A DNA stretch of 35,074 nucleotides from Thermotogae bacterium (lineage in GTDB: Bacteria > Thermotogota > Thermotogae > Mesoaciditogales > Mesoaciditogaceae), in NCBI GenBank assembly GCA_026988035.1, contig JALSLY010000075.1, positions 1 to 35,074 of the forward strand, given 5' to 3'. This document shows positions 1,684 through 35,074 of this stretch, piece by piece. Each line of letters opens with the position of its first letter. Positions within the stretch are counted from its first letter, which is position 1. The notes under the pieces are model-generated. The model was not told the DNA's origin and searched no databases. It saw only the letters and a list, made by a program, of their open reading frames with translations. The position numbers and the translations under genes were made by a program.

Positions 1684-1857
1684 GCCTATTTGTAGAAAAC
1701 AAAAGTAACTAATAACTCATATTGTGCAACAAACATTGCAAGATGATCCAAACCTATAAAGAAAGAAGTTTTTTTTACAGCTTACTCGAAGTTTTCGTCA
1801 AAACATATGAGCTCGCTATCTGAAGCTTACAAGATGTGAGCGGTAGCCGAGTAGGGG

Positions 1858-2074
1858 ACCGCGTAGCGGTGGAAGGTGTTAAGTATGCAGCGTGCTTTAC
1901 ACAAAGTCTTTGACTATAACATCATTCCGGCCTACGAGCCGGAATCTGAGGCACTAAGTCAAATAAGAGATGCCGTATCAGGTACGGCATGACCTTCGCA
2001 ACAAGTTGCTACGCTGAATCAAGTATGAGATCCCGGATCAGGTCCGGGACGACCTACGGTCGGTTCAGGATGAG
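1858..2074. repeat. cluster of palindromic (REP-like) hairpin repeats
   Basis: The 564-bp spacer 1684-2247 holds no credible gene but a chain of hairpins: ACCGC/GCGGT (1858-1870), ATTCCGGC/GCCGGAAT (1924-1945), ATGCCGTA/TACGGCAT (1970-1990), GCAAC/GTTGC (1998-2009), TCCCGGA/TCCGGGA (2031-2049) and CGACC/GGTCG (2050-2062). The third and fifth share the loop TCAGG and similar flanks (GAGAT before, GACCT after), so 1964-2022 and 2024-2074 are two units of one repeat. Their stems differ at two positions, and both changes are compensated on the opposite arm. The segment is visibly richer in GC than the flanks. It resembles the dispersed GATC..CAGG..GGGA palindromes found in many bacterial genomes. 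Genome copy number is unknown. Confidence 0.75.
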
Positions 2075-2210
2075 CCTTGATAAGACTTCGAAAAAAATTC
2101 CTTTATCTCTTGAAAAGCGATGTTTATTCGATAAATCTTATAGGTTGTAAAGTGGTTGACGTACAACTTAAATTACTTAATATTGATGCACAACGTGAGT
2201 TAACAATAAG

Positions 2211-25803: not shown

Positions 25804-27781
25804 TTTTACTCTTTACCTTCTTTAGTTCATCACGATAAATGGCTGCTTCTTCAAATCTCCAGTCATCTGCCGCTTCACTCATTTTTTGTTCCAAAACTGT
25901 TATGTACTCTTCTGTGTCGATCTTTTCTTTGAGTGCCAATATCTCTTTGATATCTTCTCCAATTTTACTGTATTCTCTGCTTTCCTCTCCCTGAAGTTGC
26001 ATGAAAAATTCATCGATCTCCTTTTGAATCGTTTGGGGTGTTATGGAATGAACTTCATTGTATCGTAATTGTTTTTCTCTACGACGACGTGCCTCATCAA
26101 TTGCTCTTTTCATGGAATCCGTGATCGTGTCTGCATATAAGATGACTTTTCCGTTGATATTTCTCGACGCACGTCCCATGGTTTGTACAAGAGACGTTGT
26201 GGATCTTAAAAATCCTTCCTTGTCTGCATCTAATATAGCGACAAGTGAAACTTCGGGTAAATCGAGCCCTTCTCTTAAAAGATTAACACCTACTACAGCG
26301 TCTATTTTCCCCTTTCGGAGCTTTGTAAGAACTTTCATCCGATCTATTGTATCAAGATCCGAATGAACGTATTCTGCGCGATATCCCATTTCAACTAAAT
26401 ATTGGCTAAGTTTTTCAGACATATCCTTTGTTAAAGTTACTATCAAGGCACGCTCATTTTTGGCTTTGACACTTTCAAGTTCATCCATTAGGTTATCTAC
26501 TTGGTTGAGAGTTGGTCTCACTTCAACCTCAGGATCAACAAGTCCAGTTGGTCTGACAATTTGCTCGACGATCCTATCTGACACTTCTCTTTCATAGGGC
26601 CCTGGAGTTGCTGAAACAAAAACAATCTGTGGAGCCCTTTCTAGGAATTCGTTGAACTTCAAAGGTCTGTTATCGTACGCGCTTGGTAAGCGAAATCCAT
26701 AATCAACCAAATTCTGTTTTCGGCTTCTATCCCCCCTGTGCATTCCTCTTATCTGAGGCACCGTTATGTGTGATTCGTCAATGAAGACCAGCAGATCCTC
26801 AGGAAAATAATCCATCAAAGTCCAGGGTGGTTCGCCGGGTGCTTTTCCACTGAAGTGGCGTGAATAGTTTTCTATTCCGCTACAATACCCCATTGTGTCA
26901 AGCATTTCTAAATCGTAAAGAGTTCTTTGGCGCAAACGCTCCGCTTCCAGCAATTTTCCTTGGCGATTCAGCTCTAAGAGTCTTTGATCCAATTCATCTT
27001 TGATAGATTTAATGGCACGCTTTACTTTTTCTTGACTCGACGTGAATTCCTTTGCTGGGTACAAAACCAATCTGTCAATTTCTTCGAGAGTTTTTCGTGA
27101 GACGGGTTCAACGAGTAGAATTCTTTCTATATCGTTGTCAAAGAATTCTACTCTTACAATATTTTCCTCGTATGGAGGATGAATTTCCAAAACCTCACCA
27201 TGAAGCCTAAAAGTACCAGATTCAATTTCAGAATCAGAACGTTTGTACTGCATAGCTGCAAGTTTTTTTAGCATTTCTCTTCTATTTAAGCATTCTCCGC
27301 GTTTGATTGAAAGGTTGATATCTCGAAAATCTTCAGGATCACCAGATGCATATATACATGAAACGCTTGCCACTACTATGACATCACGACGTGTTATAAC
27401 AGATTTCATTGCCGAGAGGCGCATTCTTTCCAATTCTTCGTTTATATCAGCCTCTTTTTCTATATACACATCTTTAGATGGAAGATAGGCTTCAGGTCGG
27501 TAATAATCATAGTAGCTAACGAAAAATTCAACACGATTTTTCGGGAAGAATGCTCTAAATTCCCGATACAATTGAGCCGCAAGAGTTTTATTTGGGGATA
27601 CCACCAATACTGGTCGATTAAAAGCTGCTATTATATTAGCCATTGTGAAAGTTTTTCCTGAACCAGTGACACCTAATAATGTTAAAAATCTTTCTCCGTT
27701 TCTTATCCCATTTTTTAGTGATTCTATTGCTTCTGGTTGGTCACCCATGGGAGAAAATTTGCTATCAAGTTCGAAATTCAT
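25784..27781 (-). CDS. uvrB: excinuclease ABC subunit B
   Basis: This 665-residue damage-verification helicase of nucleotide excision repair is full length. Walker A is GVTGSGKT (37-44). The beta-hairpin segment is [10 protein letters not shown]. The DExx motif is FIDESH, motif III is VSATPGPYE, and motif VI is QTMGRASRN. The C-terminal UVR domain that binds UvrC lies at about 625-660. Its ATG is 10 bases after the DUF212 gene, and its stop falls inside rnhB. Confidence 0.98.
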
Positions 27782-27791
27782 GCAAACCGCC

Positions 27792-28202
27792 TCACAAAAA
27801 CCATCCCACTACTGCTCCAATGATCAGACCAACTACCACCTCTGACATTCTGTGGCCTGAAGAAGTGTTAAACTTTTCTTTTGTAAGCTTTTCAAGAACT
27901 TCAGAATGCCTACCTACCTCTTGTCTTAAGTGTAAAGCGTCAGTAATCACAATTGTTGCGAAAATAAGCGCTATGGCAAATTGGGAACTGGAAAATCCTA
28001 TACCTCTACCTACTGCCATAGCCAAACCTGAGACCGTTGCAGTGTGTGCACTTGGCATCCCTCCAGTGGAGGCATACACTTTAAAGTCCCATCTTTTTTT
28101 CTTAGACAAGTTTAAAAGTAATTTTACACTTTGTGCTACCATCCATGAGAGCACAGCTGCCCACAAATAAGTGTTCCAGAACAACCTTATAACCTCATCC
28201 AT
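27792..28202 (-). CDS. divergent PAP2-family (DUF212/YuiD-like) membrane protein
   Basis: This 136-residue membrane protein has three to four hydrophobic segments, with [17 protein letters not shown] (about 45-61) and [19 protein letters not shown] near the C-terminus. Both resemble the phosphatase motifs of PAP2 enzymes in reduced form. DUF212 proteins have no settled biochemical role; a lipid phosphate phosphatase activity is a reasonable guess. It follows the metallophosphoesterase gene by 3 bases and precedes uvrB by 10. Confidence 0.82.
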
Positions 28203-31169: not shown

Positions 31170-31244
31170 GGGTGTGTAGCTCAGTGGGAGAGCGCTTCCT
31201 TCACACGGAAGAGGGCGTAGGTTCAATCCCTATCACACCCACCA
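31170..31244 (+). tRNA. tRNA-Val (anticodon CAC)
   Basis: A complete cloverleaf folds by eye. The acceptor stem GGGTGTG pairs with CACACCC. The D arm is GCTCAGTGGGAGAGC, and the anticodon arm CTTCC-TTCACAC-GGAAG gives anticodon CAC. The T arm contains GGTTCAATCC, and CCA is encoded at 31242-31244. It stands alone between a consensus-like promoter and a terminator. Confidence 0.97.
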
Positions 31245-31269
31245 AAAGACCGCCTAAGGCGGTCTTTTT
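31244..31269. terminator. bidirectional rho-independent terminator
   Basis: AAAAGACCGCC, loop TAA and GGCGGTCTTTT form an 11-bp stem, giving a T run on the plus strand right after tRNA-Val. On the minus strand the same stem follows the acyltransferase stop codon (31270-31268) at once and ends in TTTT, so it serves both converging transcripts. Confidence 0.92.
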
Positions 31270-32341
31270 AAAAGATTGTCGCATAGATTTTTTTATTCCA
31301 TTTCCAAACACTCTTGACTGTAAAAAGTAAAAGAGTCACAGAAATTGAAAATCCTATAAAATTTATCCATAAAGCACTTCTTTCGGCAAGAAACGGAAAG
31401 ATGGAAATCGCAATTACAAGTGTTCCCGCGTCAAAAAAATCGTTGGCAAGATATATACCAAGTGTGTGTCTTCCATACATTCCCAGAAGTTTCGACAAAA
31501 ACCAAGACTTTTGTGATATAAGATATGCGATCCTTAGGCTCACCGGAAGAGCTAAAGTGTAATATATGAATCCGATAGGGCCGAGTAGTGGGACGCCTGG
31601 TTGGTATTTTCCTGGCATCATGTAAAGTTCCATTGCTGCTGCAATGTAAGCCAGAAGTGCTGTGATCTTCAGGTATTTGGGAATTGGTTTTCTCCAATAC
31701 ATTCCTTTAGTTTTGATAGATTTGGACGTATACATCCCCCATATATAGAAAAACATCCATATTAGTGGATTTCTCAGAGCAACAAGAAGTGGAACCAATT
31801 CCCTTCCGAAATACAAAGGTATGTAGTAAATAGATGAACATGCGATCATTGCTATAAAAAGTGGTGGCAAGATTTTTTTCAGCTGATCGGCATTCATATC
31901 TGAGAAAAGCGGTGTGATTGCGTAAAAGATAAAGAGAACGAATAAAAAGTAATAGGAAGTGGCTGCATTTCCCAAAATGTACTTTTCAACGACATCAATT
32001 GGTCCTAATTTTATTCCGAAATCTGTCCCAACTATCCATTCTGCCAAAATGTAGACAGTTGACCATATGAAATACGGGGGGAGAAGCAGGCGAAATCTTG
32101 AGGAAAGAAAATGCTTTTTGTTTCTTTGAGCACTTCTCATTGAATAGTATCCGGTTATGAAATAAAAAATTGGTATGACAATAGCGAAGATCTTCCCAAG
32201 TGAGAATCCGACGGCGACTGCTATTTGACAGTCAAAAGTTTCGATGCGGTAAAAAAGTGTATGAGAGAGCACAACCACAATTATGGCGAATCCTCTTAAA
32301 ATATCAAATTCTCCAAAAGCGTGTCGACTATTACTGCTCAT
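31268..32341 (-). CDS. acyltransferase 3 family membrane protein
   Basis: This 357-residue protein has about ten hydrophobic segments and the N-terminal signature EFDILRGFAIIVVVLSHTLF, with the histidine thought to be catalytic in the acyltransferase 3 family (OafA and relatives). Such enzymes O-acylate, often O-acetylate, surface glycans or lipids. I start at ATG 32341, 7 bases after GGAG and overlapping the upstream stop by 11 nt. An upstream in-frame extension of 33 residues is coding sequence of the neighbour in another frame. It is the last gene of the four-gene membrane operon. Confidence 0.88.
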   Translation of the reverse strand: MSSNSRHAFGEFDILRGFAIIVVVLSHTLFYRIETFDCQIAVAVGFSLGKIFAIVIPIFYFITGYYSMRSAQRNKKHFLSSRFRLLLPPYFIWSTVYILAEWIVGTDFGIKLGPIDVVEKYILGNAATSYYFLFVLFIFYAITPLFSDMNADQLKKILPPLFIAMIACSSIYYIPLYFGRELVPLLVALRNPLIWMFFYIWGMYTSKSIKTKGMYWRKPIPKYLKITALLAYIAAAMELYMMPGKYQPGVPLLGPIGFIYYTLALPVSLRIAYLISQKSWFLSKLLGMYGRHTLGIYLANDFFDAGTLVIAISIFPFLAERSALWINFIGFSISVTLLLFTVKSVWKWNKKIYATIF

Positions 32342-33602
32342 ACGAAATCTCCGAAAATAATTTCTTAATGCCCAACATGGTTGCTGGAAGCATGAAAATG
32401 TATGCAGGCATAAGTATTCTAACTTCTTCCACCATACCACCTACGAGATCTATAAAAAGAAAAATCACGAGCGCAATCATAGTTCTTTTGTAAAACGTGT
32501 GCTTAAAAAGTTCACTTAGAAATAAAAGTTCAATGTTGAAAAGCAATAAAACGTACACGTACGCCCAAGGATTTGTGAAATTGTAGAGAAGATTGGACGG
32601 TGGATAATTGTTCGGCGTATTTGGAAATAGGACAAACATGAGTAAACCCATGACAGCAAATGGAATTACGCACATTGCCACTCCGTTCCAGAGTTTAGAT
32701 AGCTTGCGCTCTTTCTTTTTCCTGAAGAGCTGATTTGAGAGGTAGACCAACGCGATAAACAGCATTTGATCTGCTCTTGCAAAAGAACCAACAGCCACTA
32801 AAAACAATATCCATCCTGGTTTGATGTCTCTCACTACCATATAAAATCCGATTGTTACGAGCATGAGCGCTAAAGCGCTTTCGGGAGCAGTGACGTTGAA
32901 AGTTAATGGCAAAGTAGCCGAGAATGCCAAAAGTCCGATGAATGCATATTTATCATCCGTAAACTTTTTTAAGATGAGAAACAAAAAGAGCATGGTGAGA
33001 ATAGTATAAATGAATTCGCTCGTTATGGCCCCATTAACTACCGAATATTCGTACGTTCCAGAATGATCAACATTTGAAAATCCGGGAAGTAATGTGTCCA
33101 AAACTCTGAAAGAGGTCGATCCGATTGTGCGTATGCTTTCATACCAATTCACCGTTGGTGCGATAAGTAAGAAAAAGAATCTGTATTTGGGAGATACTCC
33201 TAATTTGACCAGAGCGTTCCTTAAATAATCAACCACATTCCTGTTAAATACACGTTTTGATGGGAGAACACTTGCTATTTTGCTTTTGGCAGGGTTTAAA
33301 AGCGTTGTGAGGGCCGTATTGGTTTTGAGTCCGTTCTCCACAATTTCTCCCATATCATCTCTCCATGGAATGGCAATATGCCGAAAAACAAACTCTACCA
33401 GCAATGGCTGAAGTATTCTGTACTGAAATGGTGCGAAACTTTTGCCAATAAGCGTTATCTGATTCATTTTCACGTAGGCGTATTTAGTGAATTCACCCAC
33501 TCTGCTGTAAAAAGTCCAGTTGTTCAAACTGGTAAGTATATAAGAGAAGGAGATTATGAACACAATTACAAAAAGCAAAAATCTCCTTTTATTTTGCATC
33601 AT
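32331..33602 (-). CDS. polytopic membrane protein, possible GT-C type glycosyltransferase
   Basis: This 423-residue protein has roughly ten membrane segments. After the first helix comes a loop of about 40 residues ending in APFQYRILQPLLVEF. Related PFxYRxLxP segments occur, from memory, in uncharacterised polytopic proteins of surface-glycan clusters. Other fixed-looking stretches are SFARADQML and GGMVEEVRILMPAYIFML near the C-terminus. The topology suits GT-C enzymes, which use polyprenyl-phosphate sugars outside the membrane, but a clear GT-C acidic motif is not visible. The ATG lies 21 bases after the small transporter gene; two adjacent ATGs (33602, 33599) are possible. Function is inferred mainly from context. 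Confidence 0.6.
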   Translation of the reverse strand: MMQNKRRFLLFVIVFIISFSYILTSLNNWTFYSRVGEFTKYAYVKMNQITLIGKSFAPFQYRILQPLLVEFVFRHIAIPWRDDMGEIVENGLKTNTALTTLLNPAKSKIASVLPSKRVFNRNVVDYLRNALVKLGVSPKYRFFFLLIAPTVNWYESIRTIGSTSFRVLDTLLPGFSNVDHSGTYEYSVVNGAITSEFIYTILTMLFLFLILKKFTDDKYAFIGLLAFSATLPLTFNVTAPESALALMLVTIGFYMVVRDIKPGWILFLVAVGSFARADQMLFIALVYLSNQLFRKKKERKLSKLWNGVAMCVIPFAVMGLLMFVLFPNTPNNYPPSNLLYNFTNPWAYVYVLLLFNIELLFLSELFKHTFYKRTMIALVIFLFIDLVGGMVEEVRILMPAYIFMLPATMLGIKKLFSEISYEQ

Positions 33603-33623
33603 AATACTCGCCTCCGCAGAATT

Positions 33624-33977
33624 TCAAGTTCTTGATATGATCCATATTCCCGCGATCATCAGCAATATTCCTATCACTCTAAGCAAAGATATATGTTCAG
33701 AAAAAAGAAAGAATGATGCAGTAATGATTATGAGAAACCCTCCTGTGGTCATTATCGGGTAAGCAAGACTGAGGTCCATTTTTGTGAGAACAAGTGCATA
33801 TCCGCCAAATGCTATTCCAAAACATGCAATGCCAAGCCATACCTTCCAACTTGTGATTGCGTAAAGTGCGAGTGAAAGCATTCCCACATTTGAAGGAGCA
33901 TCTTTCATCGCATATTTTGCCAACAGATTTCCGGTGGCATTCAAAGCGAGAGAAACGATAAGCAGAATCCAGTACAC
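33624..33977 (-). CDS. SMR/EamA-like small membrane transporter, candidate lipid-sugar flippase
   Basis: This 117-residue protein has four membrane helices in the SMR/half-EamA arrangement, with LAYPIMTTGGFLIIITASFFLFSE typical of the third helix and loop (about 70-93). The first helix reads LALNATGNLLAKYAMK. The glutamate essential in EmrE-type drug exporters is missing, as in ArnE/ArnF-like flippases for lipid-linked aminosugars. Located between a polyprenyl-phosphate pentosyltransferase and a GT-C-like protein, it is a candidate flippase for the lipid-linked sugar. It starts 13 bases after the ubiA-type gene. Confidence 0.75.
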   Translation of the reverse strand: MYWILLIVSLALNATGNLLAKYAMKDAPSNVGMLSLALYAITSWKVWLGIACFGIAFGGYALVLTKMDLSLAYPIMTTGGFLIIITASFFLFSEHISLLRVIGILLMIAGIWIISRT

Positions 33978-33990
33978 GTGAAAGTCTCCT

Positions 33991-34875
33991 TTACTTAATG
34001 TAAATGAAAATCAAAACAGCGACGAACCACGCCAATACCGATGATACTATTCCCCAATCTTTCGAGACAATTTCCACTGGATCGCCACCTTCATTTTTCA
34101 CGTAAACGATGTACATGTATCGAAATAAACCGTAGATCACCAGAGGCACCGTGTAAACAAGATTACGAGTTCCAAACTTTGCGACGACAGATGGATCTAT
34201 CGTGTAAAGAGAATAGAAGACAATGGTTGTTGCTACTGTTGTGGTGATCATTTCATCTGTGAATTTTTCGCTGTACATTGACAAGACACTTCTGTGATTG
34301 GACGCATTTTCTCCAAGAGAGACAATTTCATAGCGCCTTTTTGCAAACCCAATGAATAAAGATATGGAAAAAGTTGTGAGCAACATCCAATTTGAAAGAT
34401 ACACTTTTGTTGCCACACTCCCTGCCATGATCCGTAGAATAAATCCAACGGCGATTATCATAACATCTATTATTACCATGTTTTTCAAATAAGTACTATA
34501 CAGGAGGTTCATTGTTACATATGATCCAACCACTACTACAACATTTAAACTTGTTAAACTGGAGAGCATGATTGCGATAGATAATAAAACGCCGAAAAGG
34601 ATCCATGCAGATCCCACCTTTACCCTACCTGAAGCTATCGGGCGCTTTCTCTTAACAGGATGATTCACATCCAATGCTCTATCATGAATGTCATTGAACA
34701 CATACACGGCACTTGATCCTGCACAAAAAGCCGTGAATGCAAGGGTATTTGAAAGCAATTCAGGTACTTTCAAAAGTTTTAAAGAGAAGATAATTGGAGC
34801 AAAAACGAACACGTTTTTCATCCAATGTGAAGGTCTTATGAGTTCTACATAGTCTCTCCACTTTGTTTGATTCAA
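33991..34875 (-). CDS. UbiA-family polyprenyl-phosphate phosphoribosyltransferase (DPPR synthase-like)
   Basis: This 294-residue integral membrane prenyltransferase carries RPSHWMKNVFVFAPI (14-28), the first metal motif NDIHDRALD (61-69) followed by HPVKRKRPIASG (72-83), and a second block LKNMVIIDVMIIAVGFILR. These match 5-phospho-alpha-D-ribosyl-1-diphosphate:decaprenyl-phosphate phosphoribosyltransferase (Mycobacterium Rv3806c) better than quinone or haem prenyltransferases. It would make polyprenyl-phospho-5-phosphoribose on the cytosolic face. The start is TTG at 34875, 7 bases after AAAGGG. The longer in-frame ATG at 34941 lies upstream of the promoter -10. It heads a four-gene operon. 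Confidence 0.85.
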   Translation of the reverse strand: MNQTKWRDYVELIRPSHWMKNVFVFAPIIFSLKLLKVPELLSNTLAFTAFCAGSSAVYVFNDIHDRALDVNHPVKRKRPIASGRVKVGSAWILFGVLLSIAIMLSSLTSLNVVVVVGSYVTMNLLYSTYLKNMVIIDVMIIAVGFILRIMAGSVATKVYLSNWMLLTTFSISLFIGFAKRRYEIVSLGENASNHRSVLSMYSEKFTDEMITTTVATTIVFYSLYTIDPSVVAKFGTRNLVYTVPLVIYGLFRYMYIVYVKNEGGDPVEIVSKDWGIVSSVLAWFVAVLIFIYIK

Positions 34876-34914: not shown

Positions 34915-34941
34915 ATTATAGCATATATCCCACTTTTGCAA
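34915..34941 (-). promoter_or_regulatory. promoter of the membrane-glycan operon
   Basis: On the minus strand TGCTATAAT (34923-34915) is a perfect extended -10. TTGCAA at 34941-34936 is a plausible -35 at a short 15-bp spacing. It gives a leader of about 30 nt before the TTG start. Confidence 0.6.
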
Positions 34942-34955
34942 TGTAAGAGTGTGTA

Positions 34956-34961
34956 TATAAT
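34956..34961 (+). promoter_or_regulatory. possible -10 for the right-edge gene
   Basis: TATAAT stands about 80 bases before the ATG at 35037. TTGCAA 14 bp upstream is too close for a standard -35, and no other good hexamer is seen. The AT-rich stretch is followed by a purine-rich leader (34975-35002). Confidence 0.3.
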
Positions 34962-35002
34962 AAAGGGGTGTGGTTAAAAAAGGAGAAGGGAGGCAGAAGG
35001 AA

Positions 35003-35023
35003 GGCTTCCCCTAAGGGGAAGCC
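35003..35023. repeat. strong palindromic hairpin in the leader of the right-edge gene
   Basis: GGCTTCCCC, loop TAA and GGGGAAGCC form a perfect 9-bp stem. No T run follows on either strand, so it is not a normal terminator. It lies 13 bases before the ATG at 35037, just after the purine-rich GGGAGGCAGAAGGAA, and may be a dispersed palindromic repeat or a translation-control structure. Confidence 0.6.
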
Positions 35024-35036
35024 AGCACAAGAAACC

Positions 35037-35074
35037 ATGTTCGAGTCAATTATACCAGATGAGTTCAAGGATGT
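35037..35074 (+). CDS. 5' end of a gene running off the right edge (possibly YqeG-like)
   Basis: Twelve codons are visible, MFESIIPDEFKD, with an open frame to the window edge. The pattern of a short N-terminus with PDE-(Y/F) recalls YqeG-type HAD phosphatases, but 12 residues cannot prove this. There is no SD at normal distance. The nearest purine-rich stretch lies beyond the hairpin at 35003-35023. Confidence 0.3.
   Translation, partial: MFESIIPDEFKD

Follow-up and report, generated by a model that had tools for sequence, protein, structure and literature searches.

Which sugar is delivered to the cell envelope by a bacterium that encodes a lipid-charging phosphoribosyltransferase, a small transporter and a candidate membrane glycosyltransferase side by side, with no epimerase among them? 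The question is raised by a compact four-gene operon of a heat-loving Thermotogae bacterium (family Mesoaciditogaceae; contig JALSLY010000075.1), encoded on the minus strand of a stretch of 35,074 nt which, at its full length, is called the window here. Three-component pentofuranose transfer has been demonstrated biochemically in Citrobacter and was described as common (Kelly et al., 2024; PMC11127046), with ORF15 (PPPRS), ORF14 (flippase) and ORF12 (GT136) as the components in Citrobacter youngae O1/O2. The reading that we favour, with some reserve, is that the operon is an epimerase-free variant of such a system which exports and transfers ribofuranose. In the following, G000 designates the genome of the window, G0xx other genomes and L0xx related loci; statements on the phylum refer to a comparison set of 103 Thermotogota genomes.

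The operon and its predicted phosphoribosyltransferase

A preliminary description, made from the sequence alone, had proposed one operon for a lipid-linked pentose and its acylation, and the layout of four minus-strand genes stands in every detail, with spacings of 13 nt (genes 1 and 2) and 21 nt (genes 2 and 3) and an 11-nt overlap of genes 3 and 4.

33991..34875, minus strand: gene 1, predicted UbiA-family polyprenyl-phosphate phosphoribosyltransferase (DPPRS/PPPRS type), 294 aa, TTG start
33624..33977, minus strand: gene 2, SMR / ArnE-ArnF-like small transporter, putative flippase, 117 aa, GTG start
32331..33602, minus strand: gene 3, polytopic GT-C-like protein, 423 aa, ATG start
31268..32341, minus strand: gene 4, acyltransferase 3 (AT3), facultative member, 357 aa, ATG start

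The assignment of gene 1 to the polyprenyl-phosphate phosphoribosyltransferases of the Rv3806c/PPPRS type is well supported at the level of the family. The protein matches UbiA in Pfam (PF01040, E 5e-23) and, in NCBIfam, the decaprenyl-phosphate phosphoribosyltransferase model NF008977 with 287 bits (cut-off 234) and NF008978 with 207.7 bits (cut-off 207); no other UbiA subfamily claims it, so that the earlier view of a decaprenylphosphoryl-phosphoribose-synthase-like protein is confirmed by the profiles. A phmmer search against the PDB matched only the two Rv3806c structures, with a full-length alignment to 8J8J (4.9e-30). In Rv3806c, Asn73 and Asp77 are involved in Mg and ribose binding, Lys28 in binding of the 5'-phosphate and Lys143 of the pyrophosphate (PMC10994848); these residues correspond to N61, D65, K20 and K131 of gene 1 in the alignment to 8J8J and are, together with D62 and D69, invariant in an alignment of ten Thermotogota proteins.

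The breadth of the UbiA superfamily, and an SMR match which taken alone is weak, would also accommodate a gene 1 product that makes another lipid, such as a prenylated quinone or an archaeal-type lipid, with an unrelated drug exporter and membrane proteins as neighbours. This alternative is nevertheless highly improbable, as the next NCBIfam model outside the phosphoribosyltransferases scores 60.7 bits versus 287, and as genes of this type are linked across phyla with HAD phosphatases, sugar epimerases and PMT/GT-C proteins.

The small transporter and the candidate transferase

Gene 2 matches Multi_Drug_Res (PF00893) with 4.5e-6 and 27.5 bits (cut-off 23.7), while its best NCBIfam match, ArnF (1.2e-8, 35.4 bits), and the match to ArnE (27 bits) stay below the respective cut-offs of 99 and 92. 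In an alignment by eye, Asn13 stands where EmrE has Glu14, so that the glutamate of the drug exporters is missing from this SMR/EamA-like protein, as had been noticed initially. Drug export can be set aside, since this residue is missing and the gene 2 family is linked to UbiA across Thermotogota, the SMR gene adjoining UbiA in nearly all modules. On the grounds of family and linkage, gene 2 is a putative flippase for the lipid-linked pentose, and in the published three-component systems the flippase role of the small transporter is likewise inferred (PMC11127046).

Gene 3 has no match in Pfam or NCBIfam, its family being found in 20 of the 103 Thermotogota genomes. The averaged hydropathy of 12 homologues predicts a first transmembrane segment at residues 5-24, a loop of approximately 170 residues (24-196) and subsequently about eight transmembrane segments. 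This is the layout of GT-C proteins, with one large loop after the first transmembrane segment, and provisionally suggests a GT-C nature; one homologue matches EpsG at 1e-6 and 28.6 bits, just under the cut-off of 30.1. Invariant residues of the family include Q60, R62, E241, R276, D278, E393 and R395.

UbiA of the gene 1 type likewise occurs in 20 of the 103 genomes, of which 19 possess both families, and the two genes are found side by side wherever the contigs permit a view. Outside the family of the window, linkage of the two is the almost constant rule (18 of the 103 genomes). Gene order is thus conserved and linkage is not lost in the relatives, which sustains the module as such. In other Thermotogota, namely genomes of the Mesotoga and Pseudothermotoga types, the genes usually run UbiA-SMR-DUF362-gene 3, frequently with two copies of gene 3; the DUF362 subfamily is present in 18 genomes, i.e. 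in every genome with the gene 3 family except those of the window and G012. The latter encodes the full four-gene operon at another chromosomal place with 73-80% identity. G088 deviates, with UbiA-SMR, two polytopic proteins of another family and a divergent SDR epimerase.

A proposed route for ribofuranose

These components can be arranged in a sequence of five steps. The UbiA protein, by virtue of its well-supported family, would move phosphoribose from phosphoribosyl pyrophosphate (PRPP) to polyprenyl phosphate at the cytoplasmic side of the membrane, and an enzyme encoded elsewhere may strip the 5'-phosphate. As family and linkage suggest, the SMR protein would then flip polyprenyl-phosphate-ribofuranose across the membrane, where the GT-C-like protein, judged by its topology and linkage, might pass ribofuranose to an envelope glycan or protein. 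Most tentatively, the acyltransferase could acylate the same glycoconjugate, or act on it independently.

The sugar delivered should be ribose, not arabinose or xylose, since no epimerase of any of the three candidate types was seen. Searches for the DprE1-type (ALO, PF04030) gave no match in G000, G012, G088, G022 and G063, with a positive control in Corynebacterium glutamicum, which bears out the early remark that a DprE1-type epimerase is lacking. Nor does the genome of the window encode an orthologue of the SDR epimerase or a DUF362 protein of the module subfamily, its single DUF362 being a ferredoxin-type protein. These absences speak against the alternative in which the pentofuranose delivered has been epimerised, to arabinose or xylose, by an enzyme of another type or one encoded away from the operon. 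The same holds for the pair of G000 and G012, both without DUF362, whose gene 3 has diverged in common, as a change of donor or acceptor would lead one to expect: each of the 21 DUF362-linked homologues sampled has D/E at position 32 of the gene 3 family, but the window and G012 have Tyr there, and a new Glu at position 37. On the other side, UbiA stands beside a DUF362 or SDR epimerase gene in other Thermotogota and in other phyla, so that epimerised products are probably the commoner output, and SDR and DprE1/E2 variants are both described (PMC11127046). Altogether we consider an epimerised product unlikely for this operon.

Several observations weigh against export and transfer of ribofuranose as proposed. 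Some other part of the genome, whose assembly is 97.6% complete, could encode an epimerase of an unknown family. The operon contains no 5'-phosphatase gene, and none was recognised in the window when the HAD proteins encoded at related loci were used for comparison, a search that did not extend to the rest of the genome. In gene 1, Ser replaces Lys208 of Rv3806c, and Gln135 of Rv3806c is Asn throughout the UbiA family aligned. Gene 3 has Y32 in place of D/E, and therefore its catalysis must differ or use E37. Furthermore, the AlphaFold2 model of gene 3, based on four sequences, is with a mean predicted local distance difference test (pLDDT) of 49 too poor to confirm a GT-C fold, and a Foldseek search with it gave no PDB match below E = 1 (best 1.0); ALG9 and OST-B are among its non-significant matches. 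Of the polytopic GT-C-like protein in the preliminary description, linkage and topology are hence upheld, whereas the fold is not confirmed.

DUF212 (divergent PAP2, 27792-28202) was considered as the missing 5'-phosphatase and rejected, as it belongs to a phosphoglucomutase-metallophosphoesterase-DUF212 block that is kept in relatives without the module.

Relation to known pentose transfer systems

As in Citrobacter youngae O1/O2, a PRPP-dependent UbiA-type synthase, an SMR/ArnE-like flippase and a GT-C-type transferase would be encoded together, and a ribose product needs no epimerase. Differences are that the synthase of the window is without a fused HAD phosphatase domain, that gene 3 represents an unnamed family devoid of a carbohydrate-binding domain, and that an acyltransferase closes the operon, in a Thermotogota host. 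From the mycobacterial decaprenyl-phospho-arabinose pathway (Rv3806c, Rv3807c, DprE1/DprE2, Rv3789, Emb/Aft), in which Rv3806c (8J8J) is the homologue of gene 1, the operon differs by the lack of a DprE1-type match and of an adjacent PAP2 phosphatase and by another transferase family. ArnE/ArnF-ArnT, which transfers 4-amino-4-deoxy-L-arabinose (Ara4N) to lipid A, similarly combines an SMR-type flippase with a GT-C transferase that uses a polyprenyl-phosphate pentose, but there the donor comes from a different enzyme, and gene 2 remains under the ArnE/ArnF cut-offs. With the Thermotogota UbiA-SMR-DUF362-GT-C module, present in one or two copies, the operon has the UbiA, SMR and gene 3 families and their order in common; unlike it, the window possesses an acyltransferase, no DUF362 and Y32/E37 instead of D/E32 in gene 3.

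The end product had initially been regarded as undescribed in Thermotogota; the scheme itself, however, is not undescribed, because a three-component architecture to which genes 1-3 correspond was published in 2024, and Citrobacter and mycobacteria already exemplify its overall logic (PMC11127046). Novel aspects are the family of the transferase, the phylum, the alternation of DUF362, SDR or neither, and the loose association of the acyltransferase. The 2024 pathway would thereby be extended to Thermotogota, along with a transferase family named by no library. Thermotogota envelope glycans are little known, and no structure was found in the literature searched. Because the enzyme of the first step has an essential homologue in the tuberculosis bacterium, heat-stable relatives may help structural work.

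DUF362 in the position of an epimerase

In known systems, the slot which DUF362 occupies in the relatives is filled by an epimerase, and the DUF362 subfamily beside polyprenyl-phosphoribose synthases, uncharacterised so far, is strongly conserved, being 48-89% identical across phyla in the samples aligned, often 64-75%. Loci with DUF362 beside the synthase are L050, L051, L054, L056, L058, L059, L064, L083, L087, L088, L104, L109, L111, L113, L127 and L128, among others. Among 80 UbiA loci surveyed in further genomes and phyla, 20 have DUF362 at a distance of up to 4 kb and 8 have relatives of SDR-type epimerases, and none has both; this exclusivity is only suggestive, since chance would give no overlap in about 9% of cases (hypergeometric estimate) and the loci are not independent. 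HAD phosphatases are found beside DUF362-type and SDR-type UbiA loci alike. In a quick UbiA tree, the proteins of the window and G012 cluster with G088 and two Spirochaetota (L062, L085) with a support of 85, separate from the DUF362-linked clade (support 99), and the loci of these three neighbours carry SDR epimerases.

The AlphaFold2 model of DUF362 (pLDDT 86, predicted template modelling score 0.88), with predicted C-terminal amphipathic or hydrophobic helices, matched the LarA-family structures 4nar (4.6e-4) and 9q3k (1.0e-3) in Foldseek, both with a probability of 1.00 and a TM-score of approximately 0.4, and a Pfam clan joins DUF362 with LarA (PMC11770544). An invariant His and Lys are situated ten residues apart, as in the Thermotogota LarA proteins aligned; the profile-profile match with LarA is not significant (probability 0.4%, E 0.14), with the invariant H..G..K columns in register. 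It is possible, although we regard it as doubtful, that the DUF362 subfamily comprises membrane-associated LarA-fold epimerases of polyprenyl-phosphate pentofuranose which dispense with the nickel-pincer cofactor and use another hydride acceptor, in which case the operon of the window would be a natural epimerase-free relative with a transferase re-tuned for ribose. If so, DUF362 would be a third, undescribed solution to the step taken by DprE1/DprE2 or SDR enzymes; a testable role for part of DUF362 would be gained, as well as a prediction of the sugar displayed by each organism. No literature in PubMed Central was found that ties DUF362 to a pentofuranose pathway.

Two other functions were considered for DUF362. 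A classical nickel-pincer enzyme is rejected and the cofactor unlikely, because none of the 18 genomes with the DUF362 gene is among the 15 of 103 in which larC (PF01969) was found. A role as the missing phosphatase is less likely, as HAD phosphatases co-occur in L087 and L111. Separately, G022, G060 and G063 possess LarA homologues (Lar_N), and larC was not found in these genomes.

The acyltransferase as a loose partner

Gene 4 matches Acyl_transf_3 (PF01757; 4.9e-24, 85.4 bits, cut-off 31) and contains an R16-X10-H27 motif, read in the sequence, so that its description as an acyltransferase 3 at the end of the operon is borne out. Whether it is a dedicated fourth component which O-acylates the transferred pentose is another matter. 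The 11-nt overlap with gene 3 argues for it, as does the occurrence of all four genes together in G012 at a different location, where the acyltransferase stays with genes 1-3. However, only 11 of the 103 genomes possess a homologue, nine of them in the window's own family; the 18 genomes outside this family that carry DUF362 and the gene 3 module have none, and homologues occur without UbiA in G008-G011, G013, G015 and G016. In G016, which lacks genes 1-3, an orthologue (49%) even lies at the same locus, between tRNA-Val-phosphoglucomutase and the sugar-binding-protein gene. Gene 4 is thus a facultative, loose partner, as it is absent from 18 module genomes and present without genes 1-3. The deletion in G015 described below, which extends from the 5' leader of the operon as far as the last acyltransferase codons, would fit a functional unit, yet a single deletion removes contiguous genes whatever their function. 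We give the dedicated component a minor share of credence; acylation of the pentose by gene 4, as initially proposed, is weakly grounded and a guess.

At G000:C59 48942-49931, next to polysaccharide-type genes (L149), lies a further acyltransferase 3, which shares 35% identity with gene 4 and has homologues in most genomes of the window's family.

Boundaries and history of the locus

34915..34923, minus strand: extended -10 element TGCTATAAT of the operon promoter, read in the sequence
about 31244..31269, no strand assigned: terminator-like hairpin GACCGCC-TTA-GGCGGTC-TTTT, read in the sequence
31170..31244, plus strand: tRNA-Val(CAC), a fixed landmark adjoining the operon (ARAGORN), with the same phosphoglucomutase gene as its neighbour in eight relatives
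L180 6300-6490 (G015:C1 about 26299-26489): deletion scar in G015, with the operon promoter joined to the last acyltransferase codons and stop, beside tRNA-Val

The extended -10 TGCTATAAT (34923-34915) lies 40 nt ahead of the start codon of gene 1. A consensus promoter scan made no call on it, but its footprint is kept in the sister genome G015 (the alignment scores 52, compared with at most 38 in 300 shuffles), and an own promoter of the operon, as first described, is retained. Equally retained is the terminator, a clear hairpin with TTTT directly past the stop codon of gene 4 (about 31269-31244), which was not listed by a consensus terminator scan and recurs in G015 and G016 with compensating differences. 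As the hairpin abuts tRNA-Val(CAC) on the opposite strand, it probably serves the operon end and the tRNA alike.

The block tRNA-Val-phosphoglucomutase-metallophosphoesterase-DUF212 is fixed in nine relatives. The closest relative, G015, has an 89% identical phosphoglucomutase; there the operon is absent. Besides the promoter footprint, G015 keeps approximately 85 bp of the acyltransferase 3' end, including the tail in frame and the stop codon (score 84, compared with at most 36 in shuffles). Because both remnants persist, the operon, on this comparison of sequences, is concluded to have been present in the common ancestor and deleted in G015, and a recent insertion at tRNA-Val is ruled out by the same remnants. 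The GC content of the operon genes (0.38-0.41) is ordinary compared with 0.39 for the window and gives no sign of recent transfer.

The contig of the operon stops at 35074. A divergent sugar-binding-protein gene, which flanks the locus in G015 and G016, is found in G000 at the end of another contig, G000:C8, and the alignment of this end to the intergenic region of G015 stops 18 nt short of the point at which that of the window starts. Because the two contigs thus align to almost adjoining parts of this region, UbiA very probably opens the operon, and very probably no gene such as DUF362 is hidden past the contig end, unless in an unassembled stretch between both contigs.

The contig break upstream of the operon (window 34942-35074; G000:C8 26270-26784) is situated at dispersed non-coding repeat-like DNA, the G000:C8 end having 73-91% similarity to window 1711-2153. 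In G012, the operon is likewise found at a contig end, with a repeated 21-mer, and has a non-coding stretch of approximately 520 nt (L046 12577-13098) between UbiA and SMR, compared with 13 nt in the window, which resembles an inserted repeat element.

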